Part shown: positions 420 to 45,878 of the stretch, piece by piece
Layout: every line of letters begins with the position of its first letter
Numbering within the stretch: the stretch's first letter is position 1
Source: Treponema sp.
Lineage (GTDB): Bacteria; Spirochaetota; Spirochaetia; Treponematales; Treponemataceae
Reading direction: 5' to 3'
Length of the DNA stretch: 45,934 nucleotides
Assembly: GCA_012519415.1 (NCBI GenBank)
Contig: JAAYQG010000011.1
Location: forward strand, 1 to 45,934
The notes under the pieces: generated by a model
What the model was told of the DNA's origin: nothing
Databases searched by the model: none
Seen by the model: the letters and a program-made list of their open reading frames with translations, nothing else
Position numbers and translations under genes: made by a program

Positions 420-444
420 CAAGTTTTTGCGGTCCAAAAACTTG
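420..444. repeat. Short foldback of the AAGTTTTTG family
   Basis: CAAGTTTTTG (420-429) and its exact complement (435-444) flank a 5-nt loop. Related stems recur at 1639, 1796, 13692, 26021 and 29448. There is no T tract next to it, so it does not look like a plain terminator. The rest of 374-492 holds no gene that I can see. Confidence 0.6.
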
Positions 445-492
445 ATAGTTGGAGCGTTTTTGGATTTTGTGCTGTGTGAATAGTTCCACTTT

Positions 493-3723: not shown

Positions 3724-5415
3724 TTGAAAAAAGGCATTTTTTTTCAAAAGGTTGGAAAAACATCTGTTATACCTATTTCTTTTAAGATATTGGCTGTTTT
3801 TTTGTGTCTTCTGTTATTTTCAAACTTTATAACAAATTATATAAATATGTTACTAAACAGAAAATATATGTTTTCCGTAACAAACCAGCTATTAGTAAAA
3901 GAACTTAAAGAAATTTTTACAAATGCAAGTAATCAATATGAAATATTTAAGTTTTCATCTGATGTAGAAAGCAGTATTTCTTCTATTTTATCATCTGCAA
4001 AAAAAGGATTTACGCATGACCACAGTATGCTGCTAGGTGTAGACCCATTAGGTTTTATAGTTTTTGGTGTGAGTGCAGATGGATATGAATATAAGACGTT
4101 CCCTGATAAAGAGGCTTTAGCTAAAATCAAAACAGACAGCGAAAACGGAATTGCAGAAGGTTCTATGTATTTTACAACAGAAGAAGGTAGAAATCTTGCT
4201 GTTTATAAATATCATGAAGATTGGCAATGTTTTTTGATTCGCTCGGAACTGCTTTCTGATATGAATGCGGATTCTAACCGTGTCTTTTTGATTATCTGTA
4301 TAATTACAATTTTTCTTATTGCAGGGTTTCTTGTTTTAGGTTTTTATATGTTCAATGAGATTCTTCGCTACTTAAAACAGATGATTCAAAGCCTTTACGA
4401 AATGCAGAAAAAACAATCGCTTGACTTGCTTGATTTAACAGGTGCGCCAAACGATGATATTACATATCTTGGTGCTTCGTTCAACTCTCTTTCATCTTCG
4501 ATAAACAACTTGATGTCTATTTTTAGACGTTTTACAACGCGCGACGTAGTTGAACATGCATATAAAAATCATCATGTAGGGCTTGAAGGTTCTCAAAGAG
4601 AATTGACGATTTTGTTTTCAGACATAAGAGGCTTTACTTACATGACTGAAACTTTGGGAAACGACATTATTAATCTGCTTAATATTCATTATTCTCGAAC
4701 AATTAACAAAGTGCATGACCAAAACGGAATTATCGGTTCTATTATTGGAGATGCAGTTCTAGCTATTTATGGTGCGCTTCGAGATAATTATCACAATAAA
4801 TCTCTTGAAGCAGTGCGCAGTGCATGGGAAATAATAAAAGAAACGGCGAAACTTAGAGATGCAATAATTGCTCGACGTGCTGAAATTGAAGAAGAACGTT
4901 CTCTCACGGAAGCAGAAGAGCGCGTTTTCAAAGCTGTTTTAATAGATGTTGGTGTAGGTATAGACGGCGGTAATGTTTTTTACGGCAACATCGGGTCTAT
5001 TGAACGTATGACAACAACAGTAATCGGCGACAATGTAAATGCTGCAAGTCGTCTTGAAGGATTAACTAAAATTTATCACTTGCCTATTATTGTATCAGAG
5101 TATGTAAAAGATGATGTTTCCAGCATGACATCTCAATACCGTTTTTATGAAATTGATACGGTTCAAGTCAAAGGGAAAACCGAAGGTAATAAAATATTTT
5201 TCCCCTATGATACTTTGCAACCAGATGAAAATCTTGAAAAACAGTTTGAAGATTTTGAAGAGGGACTTCAAAATTATTATTCTGGCAACTGGGCTGAAGC
5301 TAAAAAGCATATGCGAAAAAGTGGACTTGATGTTGCTGAAATTTTTCTTCAGCGAATGTCTGTAAGAAATTTGCCTGAAAATTGGAGTGGTATATGGACA
5401 ATGACAACAAAATAA
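3724..5415 (+). CDS. Membrane-bound class III adenylate cyclase
   Basis: This 563-residue enzyme makes cAMP from ATP. A TM helix at residues 17-39 and a second at 187-210 bracket an extracytoplasmic sensor region of about 147 residues. A HAMP-like linker follows, then the cyclase domain (about 292-495). Catalytic features are present: metal-binding Asp300 (FSDIRGF), Asp343 (IIGDAVLAIYG), transition-state Asn/Arg in GDNVNAASRLEGL (435-447), and Lys483 in VQVKGK, the residue that selects adenine. I chose TTG at 3724 because GGGAGG lies 8 nt before it; an ATG at 3646 has no ribosome site. The end overlaps the next gene by 22 nt. The ligand of the sensor region is unknown. Confidence 0.88.
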   Translation: MKKGIFFQKVGKTSVIPISFKILAVFLCLLLFSNFITNYINMLLNRKYMFSVTNQLLVKELKEIFTNASNQYEIFKFSSDVESSISSILSSAKKGFTHDHSMLLGVDPLGFIVFGVSADGYEYKTFPDKEALAKIKTDSENGIAEGSMYFTTEEGRNLAVYKYHEDWQCFLIRSELLSDMNADSNRVFLIICIITIFLIAGFLVLGFYMFNEILRYLKQMIQSLYEMQKKQSLDLLDLTGAPNDDITYLGASFNSLSSSINNLMSIFRRFTTRDVVEHAYKNHHVGLEGSQRELTILFSDIRGFTYMTETLGNDIINLLNIHYSRTINKVHDQNGIIGSIIGDAVLAIYGALRDNYHNKSLEAVRSAWEIIKETAKLRDAIIARRAEIEEERSLTEAEERVFKAVLIDVGVGIDGGNVFYGNIGSIERMTTTVIGDNVNAASRLEGLTKIYHLPIIVSEYVKDDVSSMTSQYRFYEIDTVQVKGKTEGNKIFFPYDTLQPDENLEKQFEDFEEGLQNYYSGNWAEAKKHMRKSGLDVAEIFLQRMSVRNLPENWSGIWTMTTK

Positions 5416-6824
5416 ATATTTCTAAACCGGAAGTAGTACTTTTTATTGGTGATAAACTTGTTCCATCGGATTTATCTGCTACAAACAGTTACGATATTGA
5501 ATCTGAATTTGCAAAAGCAAAAGCAAACCGTTCATATAAAGTAATTTTTATAATTGTAGGAATCGGCATTTTTGTAGTTCTGTTTTCAATACTTTTTTCA
5601 AAATACATAAAAACTAATAATGAAAAAATGAAAGTTAGTGTTGAATCTTTCGATGATTTGAATTTGCGTCGACTTTTAGATTCTGTTTCTCGCATAGAAA
5701 ATGAACTTTCGCTTGCTGTGTCTGAAAAAAAACAAATAGATGATGCTTATAAAGAAAGTATTTTAAGTGCTGAACAAGTTCGTGATGCAGATTTACATAC
5801 TTTGCAATATATGAATCTTTCCAAAAGTGAATATAACAAGCAAAAACGAAAAATTGAAGAATCTTGCGAACATAAAATTGCTTTTATAGAAACTACTTAC
5901 AAAGAAGATACTGAATATATTGATGCAAAAATAAAAGATATTACAAATGAACTTGCAGCAATGGACAGTGCAAATCTTGAAAGAGCGCAAAAAATGCAGT
6001 CTGAGATAGACTCGCAGCGTCAGGTTTTTGAAATTGAAAAGCAGCAATTAATAGAAGAATATGAATTAAACATCGAAACATTGAAAAATCAGCTTGCTGC
6101 TCAAAAAACGGAAGCTTATAAAGAGCGCAATCGTGTTGTAGACACAATCGCTACGCGATATAAAAAAGAAATAGCGGCTTTGAAAGAAACAATAGATTCT
6201 TTAGATCCTGAAATTTCTAATAAAAAAGCTGACGATATTCTTCTTGATACTGAACTTCTTGAAAATACAGCACCGCAGTTTTTGAGTTTTTTATCAGAAC
6301 AATATGATTTTTCTGAAGCCGATATACTGTTGCTTGCTACAATAGATAAAAAACTTGAAAATTTTGATTATTTATCTAACATAATTGCTGAACAACCACA
6401 CAAAAACAGCCTTGCATCGTTTGCAAGAGCTCGAAACTTTATCCTGCATTCTTTTGCAGGCGATGCGGTTACATTGCTGAAAAATATTTTATCTGCAAGA
6501 ACAGAAGCCGAGCAGAATGCAGTCAAGCTTGATTCTTTGATTAGTTCTTACGAGCTTTATTTTGAAGCAGAACTAAAAGATTCAGGAGATTCCGGCTGTG
6601 TTATAGATTCACGGAATAAATCTGAAATTATTGTATATATTTTGCCCGCTTATAAAAACAAAATTGAAAATACAATAGCTTCTGTTTATAGAACGCCGGA
6701 CGAAGTAATCGGTGAAGTTATGCTTAAAAAACAAGGCAATGTAATTGTGGCTGTACCGCAAAATACAAGAACTTCATCAAAAATAAAAACAGGCGACCGT
6801 ATTTTGATTAAAAATTCACAATAA
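5394..6824 (+). CDS. Membrane-anchored coiled-coil protein of unknown function
   Basis: 476 residues. Residues 1-48 are polar and probably cytoplasmic, one TM helix spans about 49-68, then a long Glu/Lys/Gln-rich coiled coil runs to about residue 280. A C-terminal part of about 190 residues ends in a beta-rich segment (VIVAVPQNTRTSSKIKTGDRI). The ATG at 5394 has GGAG 6 nt upstream, and that site lies inside the cyclase coding sequence; the two genes overlap by 22 nt, which points to translational coupling. I do not recognise a named family. The context suggests a partner, scaffold or downstream element of the cyclase. The GDRILI ending resembles small beta-barrel ends that follow coiled coils in envelope proteins, but this is weak. 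Confidence 0.75.
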   Translation: MDNDNKINISKPEVVLFIGDKLVPSDLSATNSYDIESEFAKAKANRSYKVIFIIVGIGIFVVLFSILFSKYIKTNNEKMKVSVESFDDLNLRRLLDSVSRIENELSLAVSEKKQIDDAYKESILSAEQVRDADLHTLQYMNLSKSEYNKQKRKIEESCEHKIAFIETTYKEDTEYIDAKIKDITNELAAMDSANLERAQKMQSEIDSQRQVFEIEKQQLIEEYELNIETLKNQLAAQKTEAYKERNRVVDTIATRYKKEIAALKETIDSLDPEISNKKADDILLDTELLENTAPQFLSFLSEQYDFSEADILLLATIDKKLENFDYLSNIIAEQPHKNSLASFARARNFILHSFAGDAVTLLKNILSARTEAEQNAVKLDSLISSYELYFEAELKDSGDSGCVIDSRNKSEIIVYILPAYKNKIENTIASVYRTPDEVIGEVMLKKQGNVIVAVPQNTRTSSKIKTGDRILIKNSQ

Positions 6825-12113: not shown

Positions 12114-13628
12114 TTAAGCTTTGTTATTATTAATAGACTTGCGGTCATATTCTTCTTGTTTAAGCAGACTTTCATAATCTCTAAGCATTTGCTTTAATGT
12201 TTTTTCTCGGCTGTACATATTTTCTTCAGAAATTACGCTCCAGCCTGATAAATTTCTTCCTTTTTCGATACAAGATAATGCTTTTTTTGTATATTCAATA
12301 GCTTTTTTATAAACGCCGAACGTCGCATATTCTTTTGCTTTATATCCATAATAAATGGAATACAAATTCTGGCTACCGGATGTCTGGCATTTTTCTTCGT
12401 CCAGCATTGAAATTGTTGTGCTCATTTTTTTTACGTCATTAGCAAAATAAGCAGTAGCAGCATAATAAATATAAAAATTGTAGTACAAATCATTTTTGTT
12501 TTCTGTATTTTCAAATGCAGGATTTGCTTCATCAAAATAATTCAATATTTTTTTAAAAGACGTAGTATACAATTTGTTTATTTTTGCTTGGTCTTTATCT
12601 GTAATATTTTTTCCGTTGTAAGTGTTTAATATTTCATTTAATTTGGCGGTTTCTTTTTCATAAAACATCACAGCTCTTAAAAATCCTGCGGCAGGAATTT
12701 TTATTTTTCTTTCAAGAAAATTAGTTACAATGGAATATTCCGATGACGTAACATAATTTTCGCCAAAGTATCCCATTCGTACAGCTAGTATCCATGGGGT
12801 AGCATCTTTTGACGGTTTGTAAACTGCATCAGCATATTTTAATATGCGATTATTGTTTTGGTTTTTAGCCGGAAATTTTGTGTTATTATAGGTGAACACT
12901 TTATCTTTTTCATTTTCAGAAACTTTTATATCATATTTTTTTATACAACGCAGAACTTTATCAAGATATTCTTGATAATCTTTGCCAATGGACAAAGCAT
13001 AAAATACTCTACCAAATGCATAATGTACGGCATAATCTTCCCAAGAATCATAAGAATTTAGGATTTCATCAATAAACGGTTTTGCAAGATTCAATGCTTC
13101 TGTTTCAGAAAGCCAGCCTGCGGCAATGCTCCATCTTAAAACAGAAAGCATCCTGCCGTTATCCCATGCAAGAAGCCCATATTCTCCTAAAGTTTTTTGC
13201 ATATCTGCAACATAATACAATCTTGCAATTAAAGGTGTTTCCATACATTCTTTTATTATAAGTTGCTCAAGTGATTTTTTTGATGTTTGATTAAGTTTTT
13301 CTTTTAGTTCATTGTATGTTTTTGCATGCCCTAACTGTTTAAGCCTGTATGATTCAATAATGTTTAATACATCTTCTCTTGAAAAAAGCTCCCATGAGTT
13401 TTCTAAAATACTTTGAGATGCGCTTTTCGAACCTATAGGCACATATCTTTCAGGATTTACAGTTGTTATGCTTAGGGAATTTTGTTCCATTAAAGGTTCG
13501 GACAAAAGACAAAACCACTTTTCGTCTTCAGAGAGCATTTGCCATTCTTCAATCATCTTGCTAGAAACATTTGCAAAAAGTGTAATGCATAAACAGAAAA
13601 ATACAATTAACAAAGCAATTTTTTTCAT
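12114..13628 (-). CDS. Exported DUF1266-domain protein, paralogue 1
   Basis: 504 residues with a signal peptide (MKKIALLIVFFCLCITLFA, cleavage likely after residue 19) and no later TM helix, so it is probably periplasmic or surface-bound. Residues about 153-210 match the DUF1266 pattern: AWDNGRMLSVLRWSIAAGWL, then SETEA, then SYDSWEDYAVHYAFGR. Most DUF1266 proteins known to me are not exported, so the signal peptide is unusual. The C-terminal half is helical and TPR-like. The start at 13628 is set by GGAAG 5 nt upstream. The next gene upstream (13770-15392) is a clear paralogue; both contain IEEW-x-MLSEDEKW-x-CLLSEP and TTVNPE. Function unknown. Confidence 0.7.
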   Translation of the reverse strand: MKKIALLIVFFCLCITLFANVSSKMIEEWQMLSEDEKWFCLLSEPLMEQNSLSITTVNPERYVPIGSKSASQSILENSWELFSREDVLNIIESYRLKQLGHAKTYNELKEKLNQTSKKSLEQLIIKECMETPLIARLYYVADMQKTLGEYGLLAWDNGRMLSVLRWSIAAGWLSETEALNLAKPFIDEILNSYDSWEDYAVHYAFGRVFYALSIGKDYQEYLDKVLRCIKKYDIKVSENEKDKVFTYNNTKFPAKNQNNNRILKYADAVYKPSKDATPWILAVRMGYFGENYVTSSEYSIVTNFLERKIKIPAAGFLRAVMFYEKETAKLNEILNTYNGKNITDKDQAKINKLYTTSFKKILNYFDEANPAFENTENKNDLYYNFYIYYAATAYFANDVKKMSTTISMLDEEKCQTSGSQNLYSIYYGYKAKEYATFGVYKKAIEYTKKALSCIEKGRNLSGWSVISEENMYSREKTLKQMLRDYESLLKQEEYDRKSINNNKA

Positions 13629-13656
13629 ATCAACTTCCAATCTCGATTTTTACGCT

Positions 13657-13769: not shown

Positions 13770-15392
13770 TTAAATAGCAACATCTTTTGGTAAATCTTTT
13801 TTTATTTTGATATTATCTTTGTCGTTATTTTCGTTTTTTTTGTAACGTTTTTGAACAAAATTTTTTATTTCGTCTATTTTTTCCTTTGAATTTTTAATAT
13901 CTTCGTTATTAAAAAACTCCGTATTGCTTTTGTCTATAAGTGCAAAATTTTCTTCCGCTTTTTCTAAATAAAAAATTGCCTTTTCTAAATCTCTTGCTTC
14001 GTAATACATATAGGCACATTCTGAATAAATCGAAAATAAATGAAAATTCATAAACATACTTGTTACGGAAATAATTTTTTGTAAATCCCCTTTTAACGGC
14101 AACTGTTCTTTGGCTATTTTTAAATTTTCAACTGCTTCTGTTGCATAGTTTTCTGTGCTTGTCAGAATATATTCAGAATTATTCTTTAGCCCGCCTTCTT
14201 CAATATTATTCATAATTTCAGATATTTTAAGAATTTTATAGAAGGAATTTAAGTAATAATAGCTTTTTTCGTTTTCAAGGTTTGATATTAAAGATAACAT
14301 CTGTTCCGATTGGTTTTCGGCAAGCAACATAAGACCATACCATATATAGAATTCATGGTATAAATACGATTTATGTTTTACTTTTTCGAAAGCTTTAGCA
14401 TAGTTACTAATTTCGGTGTAATTTTCTGTTCCAAATAAATTTTCAGCTTGCAAAAAAGCAACAGCAGGAATATATGATTTTTCTTTTAATAATGATTTGT
14501 AGTTTGCTTTTTCAGAAGCAAGGAGTGATTTTTCTCCGTTATAACTGCCTTTTCTAATCAAATACCATTTTTCTGCGTCTTTTCCAGGATGATAAATTGC
14601 ATCATCATAAGTTAATATTGTACTATCGTTTAAGTTGTCTGCAGGGAATTTTATATCATGGCTGATAAGCTGTGTGGGTTTGCGGCTTGATTTTGTTGAA
14701 GTATTATATTTTTTTATTTCTGTTACAATGCTTTTTTGATTAGCAGATAAATCATAACCCCAATACACAGTGTAGTAACACCAGCCCAAAGCAAAATGAA
14801 CAGCATAATCTTCCCATGAATCATATGATACTAAAATCTGTTTTATCAAAGGTTTTGCAGTTTCAACAGCTTCTGTTTCCGAAAGCCAGCCTGCTGCAAC
14901 GCTCCATCTTAAAACAGTCAAGATTCGTACTGCATCTAACGCAAACAGTCCGTGTGCGCCCATTTTATCTTTAGTTTCTGCATAAAAATACAAACTTATA
15001 ATTTGAGAAAGTTCAAGACATTCAATTGTTGCAATTTCTTCTATTGAATAATCAGGATATTTTTCGTAGAAGGCATTCGCTTCTATAAAGTTTCTGTTAT
15101 CGCCCCATTTATCGTTTTTATATTTGTCGACAAGATTAAGGACATCTTTTTTTGAATGAAGGTTCCAACCGTTTTGAAGATGCCCCTTCGAAACTCTTCC
15201 TTTGTTTTTGGGTTCAGGATTTACAGTTGTTAAGCTTTGTTTTTGAGCACATACAAAAGGTTCTGATAAAAGACATAACCATTTTTCGTCTTCAGAGAGC
15301 ATTTCCCATTCTTCAATTACCTTGCTAGCAGGAGCTGCAAAAAGTGCAAGATTCATACAAATGAACATTAAAATGAAAGTAGATTTTTTCAT
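13770..15392 (-). CDS. Exported DUF1266-domain protein, paralogue 2
   Basis: 540 residues with a signal peptide (MKKSTFILMFICMNLALFAA) and no other TM helix. The DUF1266 core is at about 149-208 (GLFALDAVRILTVLRWSVAA, GWLSETEA, SYDSWEDYAVHFALG). A helical C-terminal half follows, and the last 30 residues are Lys/Asn/Asp-rich. It is a tandem duplicate of the gene at 12114-13628, diverged mainly after residue 210 and expanded by about 36 residues. No Shine-Dalgarno precedes the ATG, but a -10 box lies 6 nt upstream, so this copy may be read from a leaderless mRNA while paralogue 1 has a normal ribosome site. Function unknown. Confidence 0.7.
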   Translation of the reverse strand: MKKSTFILMFICMNLALFAAPASKVIEEWEMLSEDEKWLCLLSEPFVCAQKQSLTTVNPEPKNKGRVSKGHLQNGWNLHSKKDVLNLVDKYKNDKWGDNRNFIEANAFYEKYPDYSIEEIATIECLELSQIISLYFYAETKDKMGAHGLFALDAVRILTVLRWSVAAGWLSETEAVETAKPLIKQILVSYDSWEDYAVHFALGWCYYTVYWGYDLSANQKSIVTEIKKYNTSTKSSRKPTQLISHDIKFPADNLNDSTILTYDDAIYHPGKDAEKWYLIRKGSYNGEKSLLASEKANYKSLLKEKSYIPAVAFLQAENLFGTENYTEISNYAKAFEKVKHKSYLYHEFYIWYGLMLLAENQSEQMLSLISNLENEKSYYYLNSFYKILKISEIMNNIEEGGLKNNSEYILTSTENYATEAVENLKIAKEQLPLKGDLQKIISVTSMFMNFHLFSIYSECAYMYYEARDLEKAIFYLEKAEENFALIDKSNTEFFNNEDIKNSKEKIDEIKNFVQKRYKKNENNDKDNIKIKKDLPKDVAI

Positions 15393-15398
15393 ATTGAT

Positions 15399-25571: not shown

Positions 25572-25869
25572 GAACATCTCCCTAAACAACATTCCGCTTA
25601 ATACAGATGGAATAATTTGTTCTATACTAAAAAAAAGCGACAGGCAAAATTTGCCGCAAATCATTCATTTTTCAAATATATGCAGAAAGCAAAAAAATCA
25701 GTAATTATTCTTACCAGATTTTTAGCAAAGCACATTTTAAAATTAATTTTATCATTGTGATATTATCATCAATCTTGAATATTTTGCATTGATTGCGCTT
25801 TCTTGTCAAGTATTACATCAAGGCTAAACACATTATAAGGGCGGAAACCAGCATAGAGTTCAAAGCAGC

Positions 25870-25917
25870 GTTTTGCTAGATTAATCCCCAAACTGTAGCT
25901 CAATCCCAAGGCAAAAC
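25870..25917 (+). repeat. Foldback element with conserved loop, copy 1
   Basis: Stem GTTTTGC / GCAAAAC (25870-25876 and 25911-25917). The loop has two related halves, TAGATTAATCCCCAAAC and TAGCTCAATCCCAAG. It is the first of three copies before uvrB, all in the direction of that gene. An unrelated palindrome, GTAGTTTG / CAAACTAC (25925-25949), separates it from copy 2. The stretch 25665-25869 shows nothing else. Confidence 0.75.
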
Positions 25918-25949
25918 AGGCTTTGTAGTTTGTGCTCGCCGCAAACTAC

Positions 25950-26002
25950 GGGTTTTGCTAGATTAATTCCCAAACTGTAACTCAATCCCAAACACAAAAC
26001 CC
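25950..26002 (+). repeat. Foldback element with conserved loop, copy 2
   Basis: Stem GGGTTTTG / CAAAACCC (25950-25957 and 25995-26002) around the loop halves TAGATTAATTCCCAAAC and TAACTCAATCCCAAACA. The loop is nearly that of copy 1 while the stem pairs differ. Confidence 0.75.
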
Positions 26003-26020
26003 AACCGAATGCCCAATTCT

Positions 26021-26044
26021 CAAGTTTTCGTTCACGAAAACTTG
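26021..26044. repeat. Short foldback of the AAGTTTT family before uvrB
   Basis: CAAGTTTTCG (26021-26030) and CGAAAACTTG (26035-26044) with a 4-nt loop TTCA. It abuts copy 3 of the conserved-loop element. Confidence 0.7.
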
Positions 26045-26095
26045 GCGTTTCGCTAGATTAATCTCAAATTTTAGAATAAACCCCAAGCGAAACGC
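26045..26095 (+). repeat. Foldback element with conserved loop, copy 3
   Basis: Stem GCGTTTCGCT / AGCGAAACGC (26045-26054 and 26086-26095), loop halves TAGATTAATCTCAAAT and TAGAATAAACCCCAA. Its 3' arm overlaps the candidate -35 region of uvrB. Confidence 0.75.
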
Positions 26096-26121
26096 ACAAC
26101 CTTCCCATTTCATGATAGAAT
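26093..26121 (+). promoter_or_regulatory. Possible leaderless promoter of uvrB
   Basis: TAGAAT (26116-26121) lies 6 nt before the uvrB ATG. The best -35 at 17-nt spacing is CGCACA (26093-26098), only 3 of 6. No Shine-Dalgarno is present. A strong LexA-type box was not seen. Confidence 0.35.
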
Positions 26122-29447: not shown

Positions 29448-29478
29448 CCTCAAGTTTTTGCGGAGCAAAAACTTGAGG
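29448..29478. repeat. Long perfect foldback of the AAGTTTTTGC family
   Basis: CCTCAAGTTTTTGC (29448-29461) and its exact complement (29465-29478) form a 14-bp stem with a 3-nt loop GGA. No T tract follows. Near 29515-29540 a degraded half of the conserved-loop element may be present on the minus strand (GCGTTTCG next to a G-rich run). No other feature was seen in 29371-29612 apart from a TTGACG at 29577. Confidence 0.65.
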
Positions 29479-45457: not shown

Positions 45458-45506
45458 GTTAAAAAATCTGTACTATTCTAGCTTATATGGGAAAAATAAT
45501 CTATGG

Positions 45507-45559
45507 GCGTTTTGCATTTGGGATTTATCTAAAATTTGGGGATTAATCTAGCAAAACGC
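45507..45559 (-). repeat. Foldback element with conserved loop, copy 4
   Basis: On the minus strand the stem is GCGTTTTGC / GCAAAACGC (45559-45551 and 45515-45507) and the loop halves are TAGATTAATCCCCAAAT and TAGATAAATCCCAAAT, nearly identical to each other. It lies upstream of thrA and points the same way. Confidence 0.75.
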
Positions 45560-45560
45560 T

Positions 45561-45676
45561 GTAGTTTGCAATTTATGCAAACTACGTTTGCAGTTTAATC
45601 AGACGTCCTTGTCTGATTAAACTGCCGAGTTTTGCTTCACAAAACTCTACGCTTGTGCACTGCCTCCGTGCAGTGC
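45561..45676. repeat. Run of four unrelated foldbacks
   Basis: GTAGTTTGCA-5 nt-TGCAAACTAC (45561-45585), CAGTTTAATCAGAC-6 nt-GTCTGATTAAACTG (45591-45624), GAGTTTTG-5 nt-CAAAACTC (45627-45647) and GCACTGC-6 nt-GCAGTGC (45657-45676) follow each other with only 2-9 nt between them. Arms differ, but three share AGTTT. None has a T tract. Confidence 0.75.
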
Positions 45677-45690
45677 GGATTTGTACAGGG

Positions 45691-45744
45691 GGCGTTTCGC
45701 TTGGGGATTGGAGCTACGGTTTGGAGAACAACTAGCGAAACGCC
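45691..45744 (-). repeat. Foldback element with conserved loop, copy 5
   Basis: On the minus strand the stem is GGCGTTTCGC / GCGAAACGCC (45744-45735 and 45700-45691), with loop halves TAGTTGTTCTCCAAAC and TAGCTCCAATCCCCAA. The stem is the copy 3 type while the second loop half is the copy 1 type. Confidence 0.75.
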
Positions 45745-45745
45745 G

Positions 45746-45791
45746 ATTGGGCGTTTGGGTGGGGGTAATTTACAAATTTTGGGTTAATCTA
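45746..45791 (-). repeat. Degraded copy 6 of the conserved-loop element
   Basis: On the minus strand TAGATTAACCCAAAAT and TAAATTACCCCCACCCAA lead to ACGCCC, but the 5' stem arm is absent, so the foldback cannot form. Confidence 0.5.
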
Positions 45792-45878
45792 GCTGTCTGA
45801 CTGTCTTTGAGCTTTTTCGGCAGCAACCATATATAGAAGAAAAACAACTACTGAAAATAAAATACCCCAAAAAAGCAT
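45789..45878 (-). CDS. Possible very small membrane protein
   Basis: A 29-residue ORF on the minus strand, MLFWGILFSVVVFLLYMVAA followed by a polar EKAQRQSDS tail, has the shape of a single-pass small membrane protein. There is no Shine-Dalgarno before the ATG, and its stop codon lies in the degraded repeat, so it may be a chance ORF. TATACT and TATAAT words near 45915-45925 could drive it or a plus-strand gene beyond the window. Confidence 0.25.
   Translation of the reverse strand: MLFWGILFSVVVFLLYMVAAEKAQRQSDS

Follow-up and report, generated by a model that had tools for sequence, protein, structure and literature searches.

A modular two-hairpin repeat family with compensated stem changes in a Treponema genome

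How does a stem remain paired while its sequence changes from copy to copy? The question is raised by foldback elements preceding uvrB and thrA in the window, a 45,934-nucleotide stretch that represents the entire contig C185 of a Treponema genome of 2.45 Mb in 189 contigs. A sequence-only reading had described three copies before uvrB and two to three before thrA, and had attributed the persistence of the fold to selection or to a copying mechanism. Three cores are indeed present before uvrB, all on the plus strand, and the thrA array comprises two clear units and a degenerate one on the minus strand (45506-45793; Table 1). The stems, said always to pair, do so as described except in the second uvrB copy, where a C/A mismatch is located at the inner end of the stem (GGGTTTTGC / ACAAAACCC). 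A 25-nt hairpin that precedes most units had been overlooked. We propose, with moderate confidence, that the elements are a new DNA repeat of the REP/BOX/MITE kind, palindromic and modular in build, non-coding and non-autonomous, mobile over evolutionary time, and with stems whose pairing is maintained chiefly at the level of DNA. This reading is based on copy number, a consensus that differs between species, an empty site, covariation devoid of a G.T excess, inverted loops and changes of the first hairpin.

Alignment of the copies reveals a unit of ~79 bp in which a tight hairpin of ~25 nt, termed h1 (for example CAAGTTTTTGC-TCC-GCAAAAACTTG or GTAGTTTGCG-CTCGC-CGCAAACTAC), is followed by a core foldback, GCGTTTYGC-loop-GCRAAACGC. 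The foldback noticed earlier is the second half of this unit and h1 the first. The second stem starts 0-1 base after h1, occurs also as GGCGTTTYGC / GCRAAACGCC or GGGTTTTGC / GCAAAACCC, and encloses a loop of ~31-37 nt, itself a direct repeat that has diverged (TAGATTAATCCCAAATTT, TAGATTAAACCCAAA), as had been suspected. Folding of the repeat region gives z = -5.7 as RNA and -6.3 as DNA. A second repeat type, the three-hairpin block of the thrA array, recurs between units in many arrays of the source genome. One of its hairpins, CAGTTTAATCAGAC-AAGGAC-GTCTGATTAAACTG (45591-45624, minus strand), is likewise found again in many arrays and, with ACAAGGACGT across the loop, bears what we take to be a resemblance to the CsrA/RsmA consensus site. 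The window harbours further repeats. A 31-56-nt direct repeat at 1605-1869, in three related copies spaced by 80 and 156 bp, lies at and upstream of the start of the minus-strand gene 493-1668, and a 139-nt repeat, 77% identical between 13492-13630 and 15256-15394, covers the starts of two neighbouring minus-strand genes and probably reflects a gene duplication.

Table 1. Repeat units and related hairpins in the window
Feature	Position	Strand	Description
uvrB array unit 1	25868-25917	+	core foldback GCGTTTTGC-loop-GGCAAAAC, without h1; 47.3 bits
uvrB array unit 2, h1	25925-25949	+	hairpin GTAGTTTGTGCTCGCCGCAAACTAC, GTAG type
uvrB array unit 2, core	25950-26002	+	foldback GGGTTTTGC-loop-ACAAAACCC, one C/A mismatch; model R1 match of the unit 25924-26003, 75.7 bits
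uvrB array unit 3, h1	26021-26044	+	hairpin CAAGTTTTCGTTCACGAAAACTTG, CAAG type
uvrB array unit 3, core	26045-26095	+	foldback GCGTTTCGC-loop-GCGAAACGC; terminal, right arm intact; model R1 match of the unit 26020-26096, 91.2 bits
thrA array, complete gene-proximal unit	45506-45586	-	h1 GTAGTTTGCATAAATTGCAAACTAC (45561-45585) and GCGTTTTGC/GCAAAACGC foldback; 82.3 bits
thrA array, three-hairpin block	45591-45676	-	GCACTGC..GCAGTGC, GAGTTTTG..CAAAACTC, CAGTTTAATCAGAC-AAGGAC-GTCTGATTAAACTG
thrA array unit	45691-45746	-	core foldback GGCGTTTCGC/GCGAAACGCC, without h1; 37.1 bits
thrA array, degenerate core unit	about 45755-45793	-	nhmmer match
Isolated h1-type hairpin	420-445	-	no convincing second stem
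Isolated h1-type hairpin	29450-29476	-	TCAAGTTTTTGCTCCGCAAAAACTTGA; no convincing second stem

The repeat is abundant in the source genome. A 22-nt core pattern with up to three mismatches (<=3) produced 111 matches, against 0 for the reversed control, and the core is therefore not a chance occurrence. A profile search recovered 264 units in 96 clusters within 0.91 Mb of this genome, a sample picked for matches, so that the figure is a minimum for the genome and not a density. An intended unbiased sample, six stretches taken from two large contigs, contained 0 units. Assemblies breaking at repeats probably explain this absence, and the copy number per genome is consequently only a lower bound. 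The arrays are intergenic, consist of 1-7 units and are built head-to-tail, with a single orientation in 91 of the 96 clusters and a spacing most commonly of 80-89 bp. Slippage or unequal exchange of ~80-bp units would account for their growth. An intact right arm is displayed by 57/79 terminal units versus 29/127 inner ones. A polarity of decay along the arrays was considered and discarded, since core scores do not fall steadily and the intact right arm alone marks the terminal unit.

Searches of Rfam detected only tRNAs in the window and, among the elements of relatives, nothing at gathering score except a tRNA, and no description of this family was found in the literature consulted. The earlier statement that no described family matches the element is thus accurate for Rfam, yet in kind the element is clearly related to REP/BIME and BOX repeats (PMC3733652, PMC3049150). 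REP/BIME are small, intergenic, high-copy palindromes, species-specific and clustered, for which sub-families with alternative complementary stem residues have already been described (PMC3733652). The two-hairpin repeat resembles them in its clusters and in sub-families of this sort, and is short, palindromic, intergenic, high-copy and species-specific, like REP in the broad sense. In contrast to REP, its unit is a fixed hairpin pair of ~79 bp with a second loop of 31-37 nt, its arrays run head-to-tail, the source genome is devoid of a RAYT, and there is no excess of the G-T pairs reported as frequent in REP (PMC3733652). Unlike GTAG REP/REPIN, alignment A1 shows no unpaired GTAG tag, the GTAG of h1 being inside the stem. 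CGTC-type REP, which are also found in Spirochaetes and have no dedicated transposase (PMC3733652), carry their tag at one end of a stem of 8-9 bp that closes a loop of 4-5 nt, whereas the A1 consensus has no CGTC tag. In the absence of a REP tag and of a RAYT, the repeat is filed beside REP, not as a REP. The BOX elements of Streptococcus pneumoniae are assembled from boxA, boxB and boxC modules, with ISSpn2 proposed as a possible IS partner (PMC3049150). By description, not by sequence, the repeat shares with BOX a modular build of tandemly repeated intergenic units with predicted stem-loops and varying unit number, although the repeating module here holds its own hairpin as well as the core. 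It is nearest in kind to REP/BIME, and to BOX for modular tandem growth. Two further comparisons failed: attC sites, as the arms are GCGTTTYGC ... GCRAAACGC instead of RYYYAAC ... GTTRRRY boxes and no integron integrase scores above cut-off, and a CRISPR-like reading, excluded on sequence and architecture.

The compensating stem changes around a conserved loop are borne out by an alignment of 78 units, 63 from the source genome and 15 from two congeners. Double-sided changes affect 10 of the 20 stem pairs and 144 cells. The alignment scores 0.265 for covariation versus 0.084 +/- 0.007 for shuffles, none of which scored as high, and no slid version came near that value. At the core-stem position that alternates between T and C, T-A is found 88 times, C-G 29, C-A 4, T-G 3 and other combinations 2. 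Some core positions are invariant because the units were selected by a motif spanning them. Selection on an RNA should tolerate G.U over A.C mismatches. The counts are small and show no such preference on either strand: 9 G.T versus 7 A.C in h1 and 3 versus 4 in the core stem, a total of 12 versus 11, and 4 versus 6 in a stricter scan. The covariation is accordingly without the signature of RNA.

Two further observations bear on how the stems change. Four pairs of hairpins have the same stem and reverse-complementary loops (TCC/GGA twice, TTCA/TGAA and CTCG/CGAG), and the controls on the same stem yielded 0 reversed-only and 0 complement-only pairs. Moreover, h1 differs in 9 of the 11 unit pairs whose cores differ at two positions or fewer (<=2), and these differences are mostly multi-base and mostly fully compensated. 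Identical cores, for instance, accompany GTTTTCG-CCCA-CGAAAAC at L045:8063 and GTTTTTGC-TCC-GCAAAAAC at L045:9334, and the units at L067:5726 and L067:16020 have a loop in common but differ, in concert, at h1 and the outer pair. In published work, replication template switching is recognised by multi-base compensation and by inversion of the loop or spacer (PMC8794818, PMC8604942). The repeat shares multi-base compensation, perfect stems and loop inversion with the hairpins of those studies, and both arm homogenisation and loop inversion, by which template-switch hairpins are recognised, are found in it. The published cases come from ancestry-based comparisons of RNA genes and of coding genes in yeast, whereas here the process is deduced from many paralogous copies without ancestral reconstruction. 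Units would thus spread and recombine as DNA, and template switching during replication, or exchange among copies, would rewrite one arm from the other and keep the stems paired, any effect on host transcription being secondary. Exchange among copies could explain the swapped h1 hairpins without template switching; it offers no alternative for the inverted loops. Of the two causes originally offered, selection or copying, the second fits better given the lack of a G.U preference, the inverted loops and the h1 swaps. The repeat family constitutes a ready test bed for hairpin repair by template switching versus selection.

The existence of many copies and the presence of the repeat in relatives are both supported. 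The strict core occurs 68 times in the source genome and once each in three others among 274 genomes of the family. With a composite query and the covariance model the repeat is detected in 7 of the 8 genomes of the genus, each species having its own consensus. A match in Lactobacillus psittaci covers part of the core only, without the second half, and was taken as chance. In a second genus, g17, model matches are weaker and the second stem, directly after h1, is unrelated in sequence (GGCGCAAGT/ACTTGCGCC, GGTAACGGT/ACCGTTACC, TGGTGGCGGTAA/TTACCGCCACCA) and closes a loop of 27-31 nt. In four genomes, one of this genus and three of g17, a stem of at least 7 bp lies beside 19 of 26 exact h1 hairpins, the figure for random positions being about 3%. 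Five additional genera also have h1-like hairpins, of which 0 of 25 adjoin a second stem of at least 7 bp. Hairpins of the h1 type occur in 149 of the 274 genomes and are densest in this genus (77 in the source genome, 56 in G270). This distribution, together with the second-stem counts, indicates that h1 is an old and widespread palindrome of the family and that the two-hairpin unit, among the genera tested, belongs to two. The g17 form may be a homologue of the present one or may have been assembled separately.

Arrays turn over between species. Two units at L122 5287-5556 in G267 have no counterpart in the orthologous gaps of G273, G272 and G270, where flank identity is 91-96%. This is the only clean empty site seen; other sites are common to G270 and G273, and to G267 and G272. 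Taken together, the empty site and the sites shared by some relatives indicate that copies are gained or lost at the species scale. The uvrB gap was rejected as a second clean empty site, as the upstream neighbour differs in the nearest relatives. Between the two units of L122, at about 5340-5430, G267 carries a palindromic repeat with CGTCATTGCGAGGAACGAAGTGACGAAGCAATC that resembles a CGTC-tagged REP; if it is one, this gap houses both repeat types. MITEs combine terminal inverted repeats and a target-site duplication with a cognate transposase. The repeat presents the one insertion-like empty site, and element boundaries are too ragged to define a target-site duplication. Among the families searched no cognate transposase or other mobilising enzyme was found. 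The lack of a defined duplication and of an enzyme, and the limitation to one clean empty site, count against the DNA-level reading.

The recurrence of the layout in g17, where the stems are unrelated in sequence, is a further point counter to the DNA-level reading, as it may reflect selection acting on the fold. Such selection could operate if the unit were a single-stranded DNA substrate, moved by an enzyme, recombinase or nuclease, specific for the two-hairpin shape, an explanation that we regard as unlikely. Enzymes that recognise shape have precedents in IS200/IS605 TnpA, TnpA-REP and IntI. Architecture conserved across two genera, the missing wobble bias of RNA type, differences in element presence between close relatives and the one-directional arrays would all be consistent with such a substrate. 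The enzymes searched for speak against it. No RAYT/IS200-type Y1 transposase (PF01797) matched in the source genome, control genomes being positive, and the copies in two congeners, tried as mobilisers, are ordinary IS200-like ones with no R1 match in their flanks. A reverse transcriptase was not detected in the source genome, and the best score there for an integron integrase (TIGR02249) was 71 bits against a cut-off of 265, sub-cut-off matches being likewise obtained in 14/14 control genomes. Contig C52 carries a pair of tyrosine recombinase genes separated by about 5 kb (L189, 3545-4093 and 8412-9209), which are related to integron integrases but score below the cut-off, and no R1 match lies on this contig. 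A tentative and rather speculative extension is that shape is inherited instead of sequence, the folded single strand being mobilised by a structure-recognising recombinase other than Y1, IntI or reverse transcriptase. Were this so, stems would be free to change while paired, and the same architecture with unrelated stems would be expected across genera.

The strength of the covariation is also what a functional RNA would produce, if transcribed units served neighbouring genes, say by stabilising 3' ends or by attenuation, and if selection to preserve the folded RNA generated the compensations. The position of arrays relative to genes lends some substance to this idea. Arrays followed by a convergent gene mostly end 4-26 nt from that gene's stop codon and would hence lie within the 3' UTR of its mRNA, and most copies in g17 also face the 3' end of a convergent gene; a 3'-UTR role may exist. 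Ahead of co-directional genes, mostly 25-150 nt separate the array end from the gene start. Because gene calls rest on a simple open-reading-frame criterion, individual distances are rough. Copies had been said to share the direction of the gene that follows them, which is true of both arrays in the window, but genome-wide the gene downstream of the array 3' end lies on the same strand in 52 cases and on the opposite strand in 33 (p = 0.05), a weak tendency. This mixed orientation, the lack of a G.U preference and of an Rfam match, and the turnover of arrays between species are at odds with a functional RNA, as is promoter-like sequence, a weak signal, after the array in some downstream gaps, where a promoter between array and gene is weakly supported. 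A functional RNA accordingly appears distinctly improbable, and the placement of arrays fits passive tolerance at the least harmful sites. It is very hard to credit that the units are simply the remains of ordinary palindromes, decaying descendants of one or two subfamilies whose covariation comes from shared ancestry only. GTAG-type h1 is mostly joined to GGG/CCC as outer pairs and CAAG-type h1 to GCG/CGC, some recombinants also occurring, and part of the outer C/G covariation therefore stems from two subfamilies, but the T-A/C-G exchange is present in several loop backgrounds, eight h1 pairs vary on both sides and near-identical cores bear different h1 hairpins.

Under the preferred DNA-level reading, the REP/BOX group gains a repeat family built of two hairpins, for which no mobiliser is known. 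Functional RNAs are as a rule proven by covariation, and a repeat with hundreds of copies, textbook covariation, no G.U signature and inverted loops represents a warning case for covariation-based RNA discovery. Variations on the layout were noted in several relatives. In G029, of genus g13, locus L237 contains a tandem array of another build, in which three h1-type hairpins, their loops being TAC, TTT and AAC, follow one another every 75 bp exactly and have no second stem. At L218 and L231-L233 of G222 a third hairpin, GCAAAAC..GTTTTGC, precedes the two hairpins, and an outer stem, such as CTGTTTATGGC/GCCATAAACAG or AGTGGA/TCCACT, encloses the hairpins in a cloverleaf-like fold. Two tandem units of G271 (L193 4800-4965 / L236) have nearly the same 35-nt loop and different second stems, CTTGTGC/GCACAAG in one and CGCGTAC/GTACGCG in the other.
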